This document shows positions 15,350 through 21,687 of a stretch of 64,000 nucleotides of DNA, one piece after another (within the stretch, counting starts at the first letter, position 1; each line of letters starts with the position of its first letter). The position numbers and the translations under genes are program-made. This DNA comes from Corallococcus macrosporus DSM 14697 (lineage in GTDB: Bacteria; Myxococcota; Myxococcia; Myxococcales; Myxococcaceae). Location of the stretch: the NCBI RefSeq assembly GCF_002305895.1, contig NZ_CP022203.1, forward strand, positions 1,218,501-1,282,500, in the 5' to 3' direction. The notes under the pieces were generated by a model. That model made no database searches. It was not told where the DNA came from and saw only the letters and a list, made by a program, of their open reading frames with translations.

Positions 15350-15365
15350 GCCGCCCTCCCGGGCC

Positions 15366-15372
15366 GATATGT
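15366..15372 (+). promoter_or_regulatory. Conserved GATATGT motif upstream of paralog 1
   Basis: The sequence cGATATGT lies 62 bp before the paralog 1 ATG. The same motif lies 58 bp before the starts of paralogs 2 and 3, in otherwise diverged leaders. This suggests a shared promoter element or operator. Its exact role cannot be read from sequence alone. Confidence 0.4.
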
Positions 15373-15427
15373 CCCCGTCACACGCTCGTTTACGCTCCGG
15401 CTGGGGCTTTACGAGGAGACGGGACGA

Positions 15428-16915
15428 ATGCGCTCTGCGCTCTATGCGGCGGCCGTGTTGGCGGCCCTGCTGACCGGCTGTGCCGCCCATCAGGGCAATA
15501 CCTATAGCGACCTCTTCATCCCGGATGGGGAGGCCGTCTACGAGCGGCCCCTGGAGGAGCTGTGGCCGGAGGTCCGGAAGTACTTCACGGAGGCCAACCT
15601 GCCCTACCGCGAGGACCGGGGCAGCATGGTCCTGGAGACGGACTGGCGCCAGGAGTTCGGCGGCTCGAAGGTGTCTGGCTTCTTCCACCGCTACATGGTG
15701 CTGGGGAAGCGCGAGACGCCGACGACCAGCAAGCTGTGGATCATCCGCATCACGAAGAGCCGGAACAAGGCGCTGGCGCCCCCGGGCCGTGAGCTGGACT
15801 GGGGCGTGGCCCGGGTCGTCGGCAACGGCGGGGGGGACGTGGCCGTCCCGGGGCTCTCCCCCGAGGACTACGAGGACTACCTGGACGCTCCGATTGGGGA
15901 GAACTCCTTCTTCGCGGAGTCCGGCCAGGGCTCGCGGGACCTGGTGATGGAGTGGCGGGTGTTCCGCTCCATCTCGCCCAAGCTGATGAAGGAGGAGAAC
16001 GCGCCCAGGCCGGTGCAGGTGGCCATGGCGCCCAACGCGAAGGGGAGCGTGGCGGCCACGGACTTCGAATGCGGCCTGCCGATTCTGGGCCTGGGCAAGC
16101 AGGTGAAGCCGGGCGGGGTGCTGCTGCTGGGGGAGATGCACGGCACGCAGGAGGTGCCGCGCTTCGTGGCGCAGACGTCCTGCCAGACGGCGGTGGCGGG
16201 AACGCCGGTGACGGTGGGGCTGGAGCTGCCGCTGGAGAGCCAGACGCGAATCGACACCTTCCTGGACAGCGCGGGCGCGGAGGCTGACTGGCTGAAGCTG
16301 ATGGAGGCGCCGTTCTGGCGCAGCCCGTACCCGGACGGGCGCAGCAGCGAGGCGGTGGCGAACCTGCTGGAGCAACTGCGGCAGCTCCGCTCGCGCGGCC
16401 TGGACGTGGACCTCTTCGTCTTCGACCACCCGAAGTCCCAGGGGCAGGCGCGTGAGGACGCGATGGCGGCCACGGTGCGGCACCAGGTGGAGTCGGGCCC
16501 CAGGCGCTTCCACGTCATCCTGTCGGGCAACATCCATTCGCGCACGACGAAGGGCCTGCCCTGGGATGAGTCCTTCAAGCCCATGGGCCTGTCGCTGAAG
16601 GACGCGCTGGACAGCGTGGTGTCGCTGGACATGGCGTACAACAGCGGGTCGGCGTGGATTTGCGCAGTGGACAGCAAGGGCGTGAAGGACAAGCTGGACT
16701 GCGGCATCCGCGAGGCGAAGGGCCGGGACAACGGCGACCGCTTCTTCGTGCATACGTGGGGCGGCACCAATGACGACGGCTACCACGGCGTCTTCTACGT
16801 GGGCCCGGTGAGCGCGGCGGTGCCGGCGGTGCACAAGGGCCTGGGCCGCCCGGGCGCGGGAGACAGCTCCGGTGCGCCAAAGGAAGACCCGACGCCAATG
16901 CTCGCGTCGCATTGA
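15428..16915 (+). CDS. Lipoprotein paralog 1: BamC-like plus EreA/ChaN-like domain
   Basis: 495-aa lipoprotein with lipobox LLTGC near residue 18. Residues of about 25-115 (PLEELWPEVRKYF...EDRGSMVLETDWRQ) resemble the helix-grip fold of BamC-type lipoproteins. A short linker follows, and residues of about 215-460 carry LLLGEMHGTQEVPRF, a conserved VGLELPLES, VDLFVFDHP and SGNIHSR. This order of Glu/His motifs resembles the EreA/ChaN/TIKI group of metal-dependent hydrolases or haem-binding proteins. It is the most diverged of three tandem paralogs. The ATG has AGGAG about 12 nt upstream. Enzyme activity and substrate are unknown; the domain calls are from motif pattern only. Confidence 0.7.
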   Translation: MRSALYAAAVLAALLTGCAAHQGNTYSDLFIPDGEAVYERPLEELWPEVRKYFTEANLPYREDRGSMVLETDWRQEFGGSKVSGFFHRYMVLGKRETPTTSKLWIIRITKSRNKALAPPGRELDWGVARVVGNGGGDVAVPGLSPEDYEDYLDAPIGENSFFAESGQGSRDLVMEWRVFRSISPKLMKEENAPRPVQVAMAPNAKGSVAATDFECGLPILGLGKQVKPGGVLLLGEMHGTQEVPRFVAQTSCQTAVAGTPVTVGLELPLESQTRIDTFLDSAGAEADWLKLMEAPFWRSPYPDGRSSEAVANLLEQLRQLRSRGLDVDLFVFDHPKSQGQAREDAMAATVRHQVESGPRRFHVILSGNIHSRTTKGLPWDESFKPMGLSLKDALDSVVSLDMAYNSGSAWICAVDSKGVKDKLDCGIREAKGRDNGDRFFVHTWGGTNDDGYHGVFYVGPVSAAVPAVHKGLGRPGAGDSSGAPKEDPTPMLASH

Positions 16916-16927
16916 CGTCGGGCATTG

Positions 16928-16961
16928 CACGGGGCGCGCGGCGGCTGCTGCGCGCCCCGTG
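16928..16961 (+). terminator. Terminator hairpin after paralog 1
   Basis: A 15-bp stem (16928-16942 with 16947-16961, one G-U pair) with a 4-nt loop starts 13 bp after the paralog 1 stop. It is nearly identical to the hairpin after paralog 2, which shows that the duplicated unit included the terminator. Confidence 0.7.
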
Positions 16962-16983
16962 GCGTTTGCGTCATCACGCTCCC

Positions 16984-17022
16984 TCGCGTCCCAGACGTTG
17001 TCGCGCACGCTGTACGCCTCCG
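16984..17022 (+). pseudogene. Remnant of a second hutF 3' end
   Basis: Bases 16995-17019 match the last codons of the intact hutF (20055-20079) at about 22 of 25 positions. Read in the same frame they give SQTLSRTLYA against FQALSRALYA in HutF, with the stop codon lost. The relic occupies the same place relative to paralog 2 as the real hutF end does to paralog 3. It is best explained as the scar of a deleted hutF copy. Confidence 0.6.
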
Positions 17023-17037
17023 CTGCGACGCTTCAGC

Positions 17038-17044
17038 GATATGT
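17038..17044 (+). promoter_or_regulatory. Conserved GATATGT motif upstream of paralog 2
   Basis: Same motif as before paralogs 1 and 3, 58 bp before the ATG and followed by TATT. It lies just after the hutF relic. The constant spacing supports a promoter or operator role. Confidence 0.4.
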
Positions 17045-17095
17045 TATTGAGGCGCGCTGCGTTCACTCCTCGAGTATCGATTCTTGGAGGGGTTG

Positions 17096-18625
17096 ATGCG
17101 CGCGGCGTGGTTCGCGGTGGTGACGTTGATGTGTTTCCAGGTGGGGTGTGCGGCCCGGCAGGGAAGCACCTACAGTGACTTGTTCATCCCGGATGGGGAG
17201 GCCATCTACGAGCGGCCCCTGGAAGAGGTCTGGCCGGAGGTGCGGCGGTTCTTCACGGAGAACAAGCTGCCCTACAAGGAGGACAAGGGGAGCCTGGTGC
17301 TGGAGACGGACTGGCGCCAGGAGTTCGGAGGCTCGAAGATTTCGAGCTTCTGGCACCGGTACATGGTGCTGGGGAAGCGCGAGACGCCGACGACGAGCAA
17401 GCTGTGGATCATCCGCATCACCAAGAGCTCCAGTACGGCGCTGAGCCCTCCAGGACGGGAGATTGATTGGGGCACCAGCCGAATTGTAGGAACGTCCAGG
17501 GCGGACCGGGCGGCGAGTAGCCGGCTGGATACGGGAAGTGGCTCTGTTGCAACGAATCCAATTCTCAGCGTGGAGGACTGGGAAGACCGCATGGACGCGC
17601 CCCAGGGGGAGAACTCCTTCTTCGCGGGCTCGGGGCAGGGCTCGCGGGACCTGGTGATGGAGTGGCGGGTGTTCCGCTCCATCTCGCCGAAGCTGATGAA
17701 GGAGGAGAACGCGCCCAAGCCGGTGCAGGTGGCGGCGGCCCCGAATGCGAAGGGGGACACGTCGGCGATGGACTTCGAATGCGGCCTGCCGATTCTGGGC
17801 CTGGGCAAGCAGGTGAAGCCGGGCGGGGTGCTGCTGCTGGGAGAGATGCACGGCACGCACGAGGTGCCGCGCTTCGTGGCGCAGACGTCCTGCCAGACGG
17901 CGGTGGCGGGCACGCCGGTGACGGTGGGGCTGGAGCTGCCGCTGGAGAGCCAGACGCGCGTGTCGGCGTTCCTGGACAGCGCTGGGACGGAGGCTGACTG
18001 GCTGAAGCTGATGGAGGCGCCGTTCTGGCGCAGCCCGTATCCGGATGGGCGCAGCAGCGAGGCGGTGGCGAACCTGCTGGAGCAGTTGCGCCAGTTGCGC
18101 GCGCGTGGGCTGGACGTGGACCTCTTCGTGTTCGACTACCCGACGATGCAGGGGCAAGCGCGAGAGGACGCGATGGCGGCGACGGTGCGGCACCAGGTGG
18201 AGTCGGGCCCCAAGCGCTTCCACGTCATCCTGTCGGGCAACATCCACTCGCGCACCCGGAAGGGCCTGCCGTGGGACGAGTCCTTCAAGCCGATGGGGCT
18301 GTTGCTGAAGGACGCGCTGGACAGCGTGGTGTCGCTGGACATGGCGTACAACAGCGGGTCGGCGTGGATTTGCGCGGTGGACGGCAAGGGTGTGAAGGAC
18401 AAGCTGGACTGCGGCATCCGTGAGGCGAAGGGCCGGGACAACGGCGACCGTTTCTTCGTGCACACCTGGGGCGGCACCAACGGCGACGGCTACCACGGCG
18501 TCTTCTACGTGGGGGCGGTGAACGCGGCGGCGCCGGCGGTGCACAAGGGCCTGGGACGCCCGGGTGCGGGAGACAACTCCGGTGCGCCAAAGGAAGACCC
18601 GACGCCAATGCTCGCGTCGCATTGA
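17096..18625 (+). CDS. Lipoprotein paralog 2: BamC-like plus EreA/ChaN-like domain
   Basis: 509-aa lipoprotein. The signal peptide ends at CFQVGC, with Cys near residue 18. It has the same architecture as paralog 1: PLEEVWPEVRRFF helix-grip N-domain, then LLLGEMHGTHEVPRF, VGLELPLES, VDLFVFDYP and SGNIHSR in the C-domain. The linker at about 124-162 is longer than in paralog 1 and its codon use is less GC-rich than the flanks (codons such as att, gta, tgt). The ATG at 17096 has GGAGG 5 nt upstream; an upstream in-frame TTG overlaps that ribosome site and is unlikely. It shares its last 20 codons and terminator with paralog 1. Expected to be outer-membrane anchored or periplasmic. Confidence 0.72.
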   Translation: MRAAWFAVVTLMCFQVGCAARQGSTYSDLFIPDGEAIYERPLEEVWPEVRRFFTENKLPYKEDKGSLVLETDWRQEFGGSKISSFWHRYMVLGKRETPTTSKLWIIRITKSSSTALSPPGREIDWGTSRIVGTSRADRAASSRLDTGSGSVATNPILSVEDWEDRMDAPQGENSFFAGSGQGSRDLVMEWRVFRSISPKLMKEENAPKPVQVAAAPNAKGDTSAMDFECGLPILGLGKQVKPGGVLLLGEMHGTHEVPRFVAQTSCQTAVAGTPVTVGLELPLESQTRVSAFLDSAGTEADWLKLMEAPFWRSPYPDGRSSEAVANLLEQLRQLRARGLDVDLFVFDYPTMQGQAREDAMAATVRHQVESGPKRFHVILSGNIHSRTRKGLPWDESFKPMGLLLKDALDSVVSLDMAYNSGSAWICAVDGKGVKDKLDCGIREAKGRDNGDRFFVHTWGGTNGDGYHGVFYVGAVNAAAPAVHKGLGRPGAGDNSGAPKEDPTPMLASH

Positions 18626-18637
18626 CGGCTGGCGTGA

Positions 18638-18671
18638 CACGGGGCGCGCAGCGACTGCTGCGCGCCCCGTG
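18638..18671 (+). terminator. Terminator hairpin after paralog 2
   Basis: A perfect 15-bp stem (18638-18652 with 18657-18671) and 4-nt loop lie 13 bp after the paralog 2 stop and 22 bp before the hutF start. It should separate paralog 2 transcription from hutF, unless read-through occurs. Confidence 0.75.
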
Positions 18672-18692
18672 ACGGTGTCGTAAGTTGCCCGC

Positions 18693-20081
18693 GTGAGCGA
18701 CATCACCGTCTATCAGCCGGAGTACCTCTATACGGGCGGCCGGTTCCACGAAGGGCGCGGCCTCGCGGTCAGCGCTGATGGTCACATCCTGGCGCCGGAC
18801 GCCGTGCCCGAGGGCGCGCGCACTGTTCCGCTGCCGGGGCGGGCCTTGCTGCCGGGGCTCGTCAACGGGCACTCCCACGCGTTCCAGCGGCTCATCCGCG
18901 GGCGCACGGAGTACGTGGCATTCGGCCGGGAGGCGGACGACTTCTGGAGCTGGCGCGAGGCGATGTATCGCGCCGCCGAGTCGCTGAGTCCCGAGGACCT
19001 CTACGTCGCCTCGCGGCAGGCCTTCCTGGAGATGGCGTTAGCGGGCATCACCACCGTGGGGGAGTTCCACTACATCCACCATCAGGTGGACGGGGCGCCG
19101 TACGCGGACCGCAACACGTTGGCGCACGCGGTGATTCGCGCCGCGCGGGACGTAGGGCTGCGCATCTGTCTGCTGCGCGTGGGGTACGCCCGTGCGGGCT
19201 TCGGTGTGGCGGCCAATCCGCGGCAGCGGCGGTTCATCGACCCGGACGTGGAGACGTTCCTCGGCTCGGCGGAGGCGCTGGTTCGCGAGGTGCGCTCCGA
19301 CACGGCGGTCAGCGTGGGGCTCGCCCCGCACAGCGTGCGCGCGGTGACGCGGGAGTGGCTGGCGGCGCTCGCGGGCTCGTCCGTGCGGAGCCTGCCCGTC
19401 CATATGCATGTGGCGGAGCAGCCGAAGGAGATTGAAGCCTGTCTGGCGGAGCACGGCCGCAGGCCGGTGGAGCTGCTGTCGGACCTGGGCCTGCTGGGGC
19501 CGGGCTTCACGGCGGTGCACGGCGTCCACCTGACGGACGAGGAGGTGGCCCTGCTGGGCCGGGCGCAGGCCACGGTGTGCGCGTGTCCTTCCACGGAGCG
19601 GAACCTGGGGGACGGCATCGTCCCCGCGGATGCGCTGGTGAAGGCGGGGGCCCGCATCAGCCTGGGGTCGGACAGTCAGGCGACGGTGGACCTGCTGGAC
19701 GAGGCCCGGCAGGTGGAAGGGCACCTGCGGCTGGCGCGGCTGCGGCGCGCTGTGTTGGACCCGGGCACGGGCGCCATGGACGGGCTGGCGGCGCGGCTCC
19801 TGGGCATGGCCACCGTGGACGGCGCGCGGAGCCTGGGGCTGCCCACCGGCGTCCTGGAGGCAGGGGCGCCCGCGGACTTCTTCACAGTAGACCTGCATCA
19901 TCCGTCGCTCGTGGGGGCGCTGCCGGCGTCACTGTTGCCCGCAATCGTGCTGGGCGCGGAGAAGGCGGCGGTGCGCGACGTGGTGGTGGGCGGGCGCGAG
20001 GTCGTCCGCGAAGGCCGACATGCGCTCGCGGAAGAGAGTGGCCGCGCCTTCCAGGCGTTGTCGCGCGCACTGTACGCCTGA
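18693..20081 (+). CDS. hutF: Formimidoylglutamate deiminase
   Basis: 462-aa amidohydrolase-superfamily enzyme that converts N-formimidoyl-L-glutamate to N-formyl-L-glutamate and ammonia in histidine breakdown. Motifs: metal ligands in NGHSHAFQR (H60, H62), the HutF-typical DFWSWREAMY and VGEFHYIHH segments, metal His in HMHVAEQ and VHGVHLTDEE, and the metal Asp region SLGSDSQATVDLLDEAR. Length is usual for the family. The GTG start directly follows a terminator hairpin; no strong ribosome site is seen. No other hut genes lie in the window. It sits between two paralogous lipoproteins and seems to have been carried along in their duplication, so a functional link to them is uncertain. Confidence 0.9.
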   Translation: MSDITVYQPEYLYTGGRFHEGRGLAVSADGHILAPDAVPEGARTVPLPGRALLPGLVNGHSHAFQRLIRGRTEYVAFGREADDFWSWREAMYRAAESLSPEDLYVASRQAFLEMALAGITTVGEFHYIHHQVDGAPYADRNTLAHAVIRAARDVGLRICLLRVGYARAGFGVAANPRQRRFIDPDVETFLGSAEALVREVRSDTAVSVGLAPHSVRAVTREWLAALAGSSVRSLPVHMHVAEQPKEIEACLAEHGRRPVELLSDLGLLGPGFTAVHGVHLTDEEVALLGRAQATVCACPSTERNLGDGIVPADALVKAGARISLGSDSQATVDLLDEARQVEGHLRLARLRRAVLDPGTGAMDGLAARLLGMATVDGARSLGLPTGVLEAGAPADFFTVDLHHPSLVGALPASLLPAIVLGAEKAAVRDVVVGGREVVREGRHALAEESGRAFQALSRALYA

Positions 20082-20099
20082 GCGGGGCGGTTCCTCGTC

Positions 20100-20106
20100 G
20101 ATATGT
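20100..20106 (+). promoter_or_regulatory. Conserved GATATGT motif upstream of paralog 3
   Basis: Third occurrence of the motif, 58 bp before the paralog 3 ATG and 18 bp after the hutF stop. The identical spacing to paralog 2 despite diverged surrounding bases is the main evidence for function. Confidence 0.4.
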
Positions 20107-20126
20107 CATTGCGGCATGACGCGTTT

Positions 20127-20154
20127 CTCCTCCGGGAGTTGATTCCCGGAGGGG
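20127..20154 (+). promoter_or_regulatory. Hairpin sequestering the ribosome binding site of paralog 3
   Basis: Bases 20129-20137 pair perfectly with 20144-20152, and one G-U plus one G-C pair extend the stem to 11 bp; the loop is 6 nt. The GGAGG ribosome binding site at 20148-20152 lies wholly in the 3' arm, 5 nt before the ATG at 20158. Translation of paralog 3 is therefore probably limited unless the hairpin opens. Paralogs 1 and 2 lack an equivalent strong hairpin. Confidence 0.5.
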
Positions 20155-20157
20155 TCG

Positions 20158-21687
20158 ATGCGCGCGACGTGGTTCGCGGTGGTGACGTTGATGTGTTTCC
20201 AGGTGGGGTGTGCGGCCCGGCAGGGAAGCACCTACAGCGACTTGTTCATCCCGGATGGGGAGGCCATCTACGAGCGGCCCCTGGAAGAGGTCTGGCCGGA
20301 GGTGCGGCGGTTCTTCACGGAGAACAAGCTGCCCTACAAGGAGGACGAGGGGAGCCTGGTGCTGGAGACGGACTGGCGCCAGGAGTTCGGCGGCTCGAAG
20401 ATTTCGAGCTTCTGGCACCGGTACATGGTGCTGGGAAAGCGCGAGACGCCGACGACGAGCAAGCTGTGGATCATCCGCATCACCAAGAGCTCCAGTACGG
20501 CGCTGAGCCCTCCGGGCCGGGAGATTGATTGGGGCGTCACGCGCGCTGTTGGATTGGGGCCTGGCAGCCAGAATCAAATTGATGTCAACGCCGGCACCGG
20601 CTCTGTCGCCGCCGAACCGGGACTCAGCGTGGAGGACTTCGAGGACCGGTTCGACACGCCCCAGGGGGAGAACTCCTTCTTCGCGGGCTCGGGGCAGGGC
20701 TCACGGGACCTCGTCATGGAGTGGCGGGTGTTCCGCTCCATCTCGCCGAAGCTGATGAAGGAGGAGAACGCGCCCAAGCCGGTGCAGGTGGCGGTGGCCC
20801 CGAATGCGAAGGGGGGCTCGACGGCGATGGACTTCGAATGCGGCCTGCCGATTCTGGGCCTGGGCAAGCAGGTGAAGCCGGGCGGGGTGCTGCTGCTGGG
20901 GGAGATGCACGGCACGCACGAGGTGCCGCGCTTCGTGGCGCAGACGTCCTGCCAGACGGCGGTGGCGGGCACGCCGGTGACGGTGGGGCTGGAGCTGCCG
21001 CTGGAGAGCCAGACGCGCGTGTCGGCGTTCCTGGACAGCGCTGGGACGGAGGCTGACTGGCTGAAGCTGATGGAGGCGCCGTTCTGGCGCAGCCCGTACC
21101 CGGATGGGCGCAGCAGCGAGGCGGTGGCGAACCTGCTGGAGCAGTTGCGCCAGTTGCGCGCGCGTGGGCTGGACGTGGACCTCTTCGTGTTCGACTACCC
21201 GACGATGCAGGGGCAGGCGCGCGAGGACGCGATGGCGGCGACGGTGCGGCACCAGGTGGAGTCGGGCCCCAGGCGCTTCCACGTCATCCTGTCGGGAAAC
21301 ATCCACTCGCGCACCCGGAAGGGGCTGCCGTGGGACACGTCCTTCAAGCCGATGGGGCTGTTGCTGAAGGACGCGCTGGACAGCGTGGTGTCGCTGGACA
21401 TGGCGTACAACAGCGGCTCGGCGTGGATTTGCGCGGTGGACGGCAAGGGTGTGAAGGACACGCTGGACTGCGGCATCCGTGAGACGAAGGGCCGGGACAA
21501 CGGCGACCGTTTCTTCGTGCACACCTGGGGCGGCACCAACGGCGACGGCTACCACGGCGTCTTCTACGTGGGGGCGGTGAACGCGGCGGCGCCGGCGGTG
21601 CACAAGGGCCTGGGACGGCCGGGCGCGGGGGACAAGTCGCTGTCTCCGATGGAGGCGCCCGTGCCCAGGCTGGCCGTCGTTCGCTGA
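20158..21687 (+). CDS. Lipoprotein paralog 3: BamC-like plus EreA/ChaN-like domain
   Basis: 509-aa lipoprotein that matches paralog 2 over nearly all of the signal peptide, N-domain and C-domain, including LLLGEMHGTHEVPRF and SGNIHSR. It differs strongly in the linker (about residues 125-160, rich in Gly/Asn/Gln) and in the last 15 residues, which read SLSPMEAPVPRLAVVR instead of the SGAPKEDPTPM ending of paralogs 1 and 2. The lipobox Cys is near residue 18. Its ribosome site is buried in a hairpin, so its expression may be controlled differently from that of its sisters. Function unknown; a hydrolase or ligand-binding role at the outer membrane is inferred from the EreA/ChaN-like motifs. Confidence 0.72.
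   Translation: MRATWFAVVTLMCFQVGCAARQGSTYSDLFIPDGEAIYERPLEEVWPEVRRFFTENKLPYKEDEGSLVLETDWRQEFGGSKISSFWHRYMVLGKRETPTTSKLWIIRITKSSSTALSPPGREIDWGVTRAVGLGPGSQNQIDVNAGTGSVAAEPGLSVEDFEDRFDTPQGENSFFAGSGQGSRDLVMEWRVFRSISPKLMKEENAPKPVQVAVAPNAKGGSTAMDFECGLPILGLGKQVKPGGVLLLGEMHGTHEVPRFVAQTSCQTAVAGTPVTVGLELPLESQTRVSAFLDSAGTEADWLKLMEAPFWRSPYPDGRSSEAVANLLEQLRQLRARGLDVDLFVFDYPTMQGQAREDAMAATVRHQVESGPRRFHVILSGNIHSRTRKGLPWDTSFKPMGLLLKDALDSVVSLDMAYNSGSAWICAVDGKGVKDTLDCGIRETKGRDNGDRFFVHTWGGTNGDGYHGVFYVGAVNAAAPAVHKGLGRPGAGDKSLSPMEAPVPRLAVVR

Follow-up and report, generated by a model that had tools for sequence, protein, structure and literature searches.

The window analysed here is a stretch of 64,000 nucleotides (G000:C1:1218501-1282500) within a single-contig genome of 8.97 Mb (G000). 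A ferritin-like gene is followed in it by lip1, lip2, hutF, lip3, argE (acetylornithine deacetylase) and mfd. The named relatives that carry this locus are mainly Myxococcus species, and we found nothing on the locus in the literature. Closely behind hutF, argE is found in many Myxococcaceae and Acidobacteriota genomes (L048-L081). The original prediction described three paralogous lipoprotein genes around one intact hutF, and that description is accurate: lip2 shares 86% identity with lip1 and 92% with lip3, the three genes have no other close copies in the genome and share one orientation (plus strand), and the intact hutF product scores 622 bits against TIGR02022, above the cut-off of 413. 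The genes and the two hairpins that follow lip1 and lip2 are:

15428-16915, plus strand: lip1, lipoprotein with a predicted BamC-like N domain, a short variable linker and a predicted EreA/ChaN-like C domain; A-type (pre-hutF position)
16928-16961, plus strand: terminator-like hairpin after lip1, in a spacer of the lip-to-hutF type; -39.6 kcal/mol
17096-18625, plus strand: lip2, a mosaic with lip3-type 5' and central parts and lip1-type sequence in its last ~30-45 codons
18638-18671, plus strand: terminator-like hairpin in the lip2-hutF interval; -37.8 kcal/mol
18693-20081, plus strand: intact hutF, formimidoylglutamate deiminase
20158-21687, plus strand: lip3, lipoprotein; B-type, in the ancestral position after hutF and before argE

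The two hairpins were originally called nearly identical terminators. They are indeed nearly identical, and strong (z about -5). Both lack a downstream T run, however, and a terminator scan calls neither of them; on these grounds we rejected intrinsic terminators and refer to both as terminator-like hairpins.

The interval between lip1 and lip2 contains, in order:

16962-16974, plus strand: left deletion edge, the remaining start of a lip-to-hutF spacer; TGGCGTTTGCGT here, TGGCGCTGGCGT in relatives
16975-16984, no strand assigned: deletion junction; about 1.36 kb missing, corresponding to hutF codons 1 to about 449
16985-17019, plus strand: hutF relic, the last ~11-13 codons of the gene
17020-17095, plus strand: hutF-to-lip spacer before lip2, homologous to 20080-20157

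Alignment with eight relatives identifies the sequence just 3' of the hairpin as the start of a normal lip-to-hutF spacer. Given this match, the lip1-lip2 spacer corresponds to the two edges of a lip-hutF-lip segment from which about 1.36 kb has been removed. The order and orientation of such a segment are retained, with hairpin and spacer first and then the end of hutF and the hutF-lip3 spacer. What follows lip1 is of the lip-to-hutF type, which differs from the lip-lip spacers found elsewhere, and what precedes lip2 is of the hutF-to-lip type. When 16962-17095 is aligned to 18672-20157, the single significant match is the 3' end of hutF together with the spacer before lip3; at the hutF 5' end nothing rises above background. 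Similarity begins at about 16982-16985 and continues through the whole hutF-lip3 spacer up to the start of lip2. The relic had been credited with about 22 of 25 bases matching the last hutF codons. Our count, 24 of the last 27 nt of hutF, agrees with that figure, but the relic is longer than described, as the match extends through the hutF-lip3 spacer. The former stop codon TGA reads TCC (17020-17022). A short CATCAC at the junction (16975-16984) was considered as a 5' hutF relic; the evidence is suggestive only, and we make no claim for it.

Weak matches are frequent in GC-rich coding DNA, and others in this genome reach E=2e-6 (one) or about 1e-4 (several), so a chance resemblance with no hutF origin must be weighed. 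Local alignment of 16962-17050 with the hutF region nevertheless scores 52, while 500 shuffles gave a mean of 20.4 (sd 2.4) and a maximum of 32. With 18640-20157 as query we also searched all 8.97 Mb of genomic DNA and counted matches outside the unit itself. The best of these pairs 16982-17093 with 20042-20155 (E=5e-7); the third-best pairs 16930-16964 with 18640-18674 (E=6.5e-6). These two matches are collinear, lie 17 bp apart and correspond to the final 114 and the initial 35 query bases, respectively. The relic is also continuous with a homologous lip spacer, and on all these counts the probability that it arose by chance is negligible.

Comparison with relatives places this scar in context. 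All eight of the closest relatives have a lip-hutF-lip arrangement with no scar and with an undisturbed 67-nt lip-hutF spacer. Our genus sample comprises 27 genomes, one per species; hutF is single copy in every one, and no two-hutF intermediate was found among them. In other clades up to four lip genes precede hutF (arrays of two to four are common) and none or one follow it. One could thus envision an older lip-lip array in front of hutF that was partly overwritten by conversion from the hutF-lip3 region, with a tract starting in the hutF tail and no duplication of the unit. Gene conversion among lip copies is likely at this locus, as we discuss below. However, the sequence after lip1 is of the lip-to-hutF and not the lip-to-lip type, conversion requires the left end of its tract to be homologous and no such homology is evident, and the eight close relatives uniformly have one lip before hutF. 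We regard this scenario as very improbable.

The structure of lip2 provides a second line of evidence. Trees computed by segment pair lip2 with lip3 over the first 360 nt (support 100/99); for the 3' end they pair it with lip1 (support 93/83). The segment trees were also computed as FastTree versions. AU tests reject a lip1+lip2 grouping for the first 360 nt (p=1.7e-12) and a lip2+lip3 grouping for the 3' end (p=0.005), the latter segment being short at 99 columns. A hybrid of this kind is the product expected from recombination between a lip3-type and a lip1-type gene across hutF, an exchange that duplicates hutF automatically. Together, the two hutF edges in the spacer, the hybrid lip2 and the unduplicated arrangement of the relatives lend strong support to the original proposal that the unit was duplicated and one hutF lost.

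We consider it very likely that the lip-hutF unit was duplicated by recombination between lipA and lipB, that the first hutF was then deleted, and that the lip genes were later converted. The ancestor would have been lipA-hutF-lipB, as kept in the eight close relatives. A homologous exchange between the directly oriented lipA and lipB, through unequal crossing over between sister chromosomes, would yield lipA-hutF-lip(B/A)-hutF-lipB. A subsequent deletion of ~1.36 kb would have taken out the first hutF almost exactly, leaving the lip-side spacer on the left and, on the right, the last ~13 codons of hutF with the promoter-bearing spacer of lip2. All three lip genes would have come through whole, each keeping a promoter-like motif of its own. 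We infer the order of these events, the sister-chromosome mechanism and the later gene conversion from what the locus retains.

Two full hutF genes need not have coexisted, and an identical scar and hybrid lip2 could arise in one step if a hutF-less lipA-scar-lipB chromosome recombined with an intact one through lipB and lipA, for example after transfer between strains. The variable loop of lip2 is nearer to the lip of another species (G021) than to lip3, which makes exchange with other lineages conceivable. This route needs a viable lineage without hutF, however, and hutF is kept across the genus sample, in which no hutF-less allele was found. We therefore judge it unlikely and favour duplication of the unit followed by deletion.

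Gene conversion is suggested by a discordance between coding and spacer sequence. Between lip2 and lip3, 398 of 413 third codon positions are identical (with the variable loop and the 3' end left out), while the upstream spacers agree at 52 of 75 positions (Fisher p=2e-11). In a comparison of G000 with G021 the two classes are about equal (third positions 341/413; spacers 78%). Identical tracts common to the three lip genes are longer than permutation predicts. Because the spacers are far more diverged than the coding DNA, the lip genes have probably been re-homogenised: conversion would have acted between lip2 and lip3 over most of their length and between lip2 and lip1 at the 3' end, sparing the spacers. 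The simplest reading of the discordance is an old duplication with later conversion limited to coding sequence, and of the whole history the discordance is the point we are least sure of. Spacer divergence (about 31-35%) exceeds the distance that separates this genome from sister species (about 18-22%). The duplication could accordingly be older than the species split and have been lost elsewhere, which leaves the number of events uncertain. As the spacers give a value older than the split, we offer no date.

The lip arrays turn over across the genus, with one to five copies per genome. Corallococcus and Citreicoccus have no lip before hutF and two or three after it, one of them truncated. We searched the lip-lip spacers of the other genus genomes for hutF relics and found none above shuffles, in a set that excluded two spacers shorter than 25 nt and one split contig. 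Since no other testable lip-lip spacer carries a relic, lip arrays usually grow without hutF, and the array in the window stands apart in having recorded a duplication of that gene. Retention of the lip genes had been taken to suggest selection for their dosage or diversity. Mutational turnover combined with a single-copy hutF explains as much, because lip numbers vary, mostly with no scar, and no genome of the sample has more than one hutF. The other genomes in which hutF lies near argE mostly lack a lip at that place, and the lip genes are thus probably later arrivals; the hutF-argE pair is old, and lip genes were probably inserted around hutF afterwards.

Several loci outside the window merit mention in their own right. 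In G003, a C-terminal lip fragment lies between two lip genes (L138 7275-7469) and is possibly another array scar; the lip preceding this fragment may be frameshifted. In Citreicoccus inhibens a partial lip match stands straight after hutF (L058 7456-7836) and is followed by two full lip genes, possibly representing another partial copy. A sequence titled 'Comamonas sp. KCTC 72670' (L039) carries the full Myxococcus-type locus with an 89% identical hutF, and is probably a mislabelled Myxococcus genome.

Each lip gene in the window is preceded by a promoter-like motif, and further sites of this motif occur elsewhere on the contig:

15365-15390, plus strand: CGATATG-N15-CGTT, 63 nt before lip1
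17037-17063, plus strand: CGATATG-N16-CGTT, 59 nt before lip2; left in place by the deletion
20099-20125, plus strand: CGATATG-N16-CGTT, 59 nt before lip3
Further sites in G000:C1 (contig coordinates; minus strand where marked): 789553, 790169, 1920137 (minus), 1950754 (minus), 7081979 (minus), 7194764

The hutF deletion ended about 50 bases short of the lip2 motif, and lip2 has for this reason kept it. Across the family, 63 of the 69 lip genes have CGATAT-N16/17-CGTT in front of them, in most cases 56-65 nt from their start codons. G000 has ten exact sites and a reversed control has none; the 27 genus genomes have 7-26 sites each, against 0-2 for reversed controls. Beyond the three lip genes, the G000 sites precede five genes with lipoprotein-like signals (one judged by eye) and an operon encoding an ECF sigma factor and a zinc-finger anti-sigma factor. 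The site at this operon is present in G000 and in the eight relatives whose motif sites were fully listed (G001-G008), at 112-115 nt upstream of the ECF start that the search relied on. Among 45 sites checked across four genomes, 44 of them outside lip arrays, 16 have a strictly called lipoprotein signal after them, compared with 1.8% of random positions. On this sequence evidence, the ECF sigma factor may use the motif. The lip genes could then be members of a regulon of Myxococcus envelope lipoproteins that is undescribed, ECF-sigma-dependent and autoregulated, in which the motif drives the sigma/anti-sigma operon and many lipoprotein genes; the arrays would be its fast-evolving part, expanding, contracting and swapping hypervariable linkers around a constant hutF. 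We see the case for this regulon as evenly balanced, and the motif makes it a testable candidate that ties an ECF sigma factor to the lip family.

All lip proteins have a lipoprotein signal, with G17 and C18 invariant. Searches of solved structures by sequence gave no convincing relative of the lip proteins. The structure model is of modest confidence (mean pLDDT 58, pTM 0.60); its C-terminal part aligns with the erythromycin esterase EreC (6xcq, Z 13.2) and ChaN (2g5g, Z 10.7), and its N-terminal part with the N domain of BamC (2yh6, Z 8.0). All 31 of the aligned family members match ChaN (best E 7.5e-8). Going by fold, the lip products would function as envelope lipoproteins with a BamC-like domain and an EreA/ChaN-like domain of the esterase or haem-binding type. 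Between them lies a hypervariable linker (lip2 residues 123-160, window about 17462-17575). Linker types in lip2 and its orthologues do not track the species tree, and the lip2 type is that of the G021 lip, not that of lip3. Such a pattern points either to short cassettes being exchanged or to diversifying selection.

Among known proteins, members of the EreA/ChaN (Tiki) superfamily such as EreC and ChaN resemble the lip proteins in the predicted C-terminal fold and in the conserved GExHG...E...H residues. Unlike them, the lip proteins are lipid-anchored, carry a BamC-like N domain and a hypervariable linker, and score below the Pfam cut-off (24.2-24.9 bits for the three in the window against PF04187, ChaN or Cofac_haem_bdg, where gathering requires 27.7). 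BamC (Lipoprotein_18) shares with them a lipoprotein signal followed by an N-type domain. The lip proteins differ in having the N domain only, and in scoring 12.5-14.6 bits against PF06804, below its cut-off of 25.

The closest parallel for the locus itself is tandem duplication by unequal recombination between direct repeats. It shares with such systems flanking repeats, a hybrid gene at the junction, loss of the redundant non-repeat gene and homogenised repeats: the lip genes are repeats in the same orientation, lip2 is the junction hybrid, both edges of the unique gene survive with its interior lost, and the eight closest relatives are unduplicated. The event that left the hutF scar is of an ordinary kind, in an unusually good state of preservation. 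It presents a clean case of array growth by recombination across a neighbour that was then shed, at a locus where hutF sits within a recombination-prone lipoprotein array and yet is single throughout the genus sample. Compared with tandem duplication in general, followed by deletion and concerted evolution, the lip locus is no different in kind; it is only easier to read than usual, since the lost gene has left both of its edges behind.
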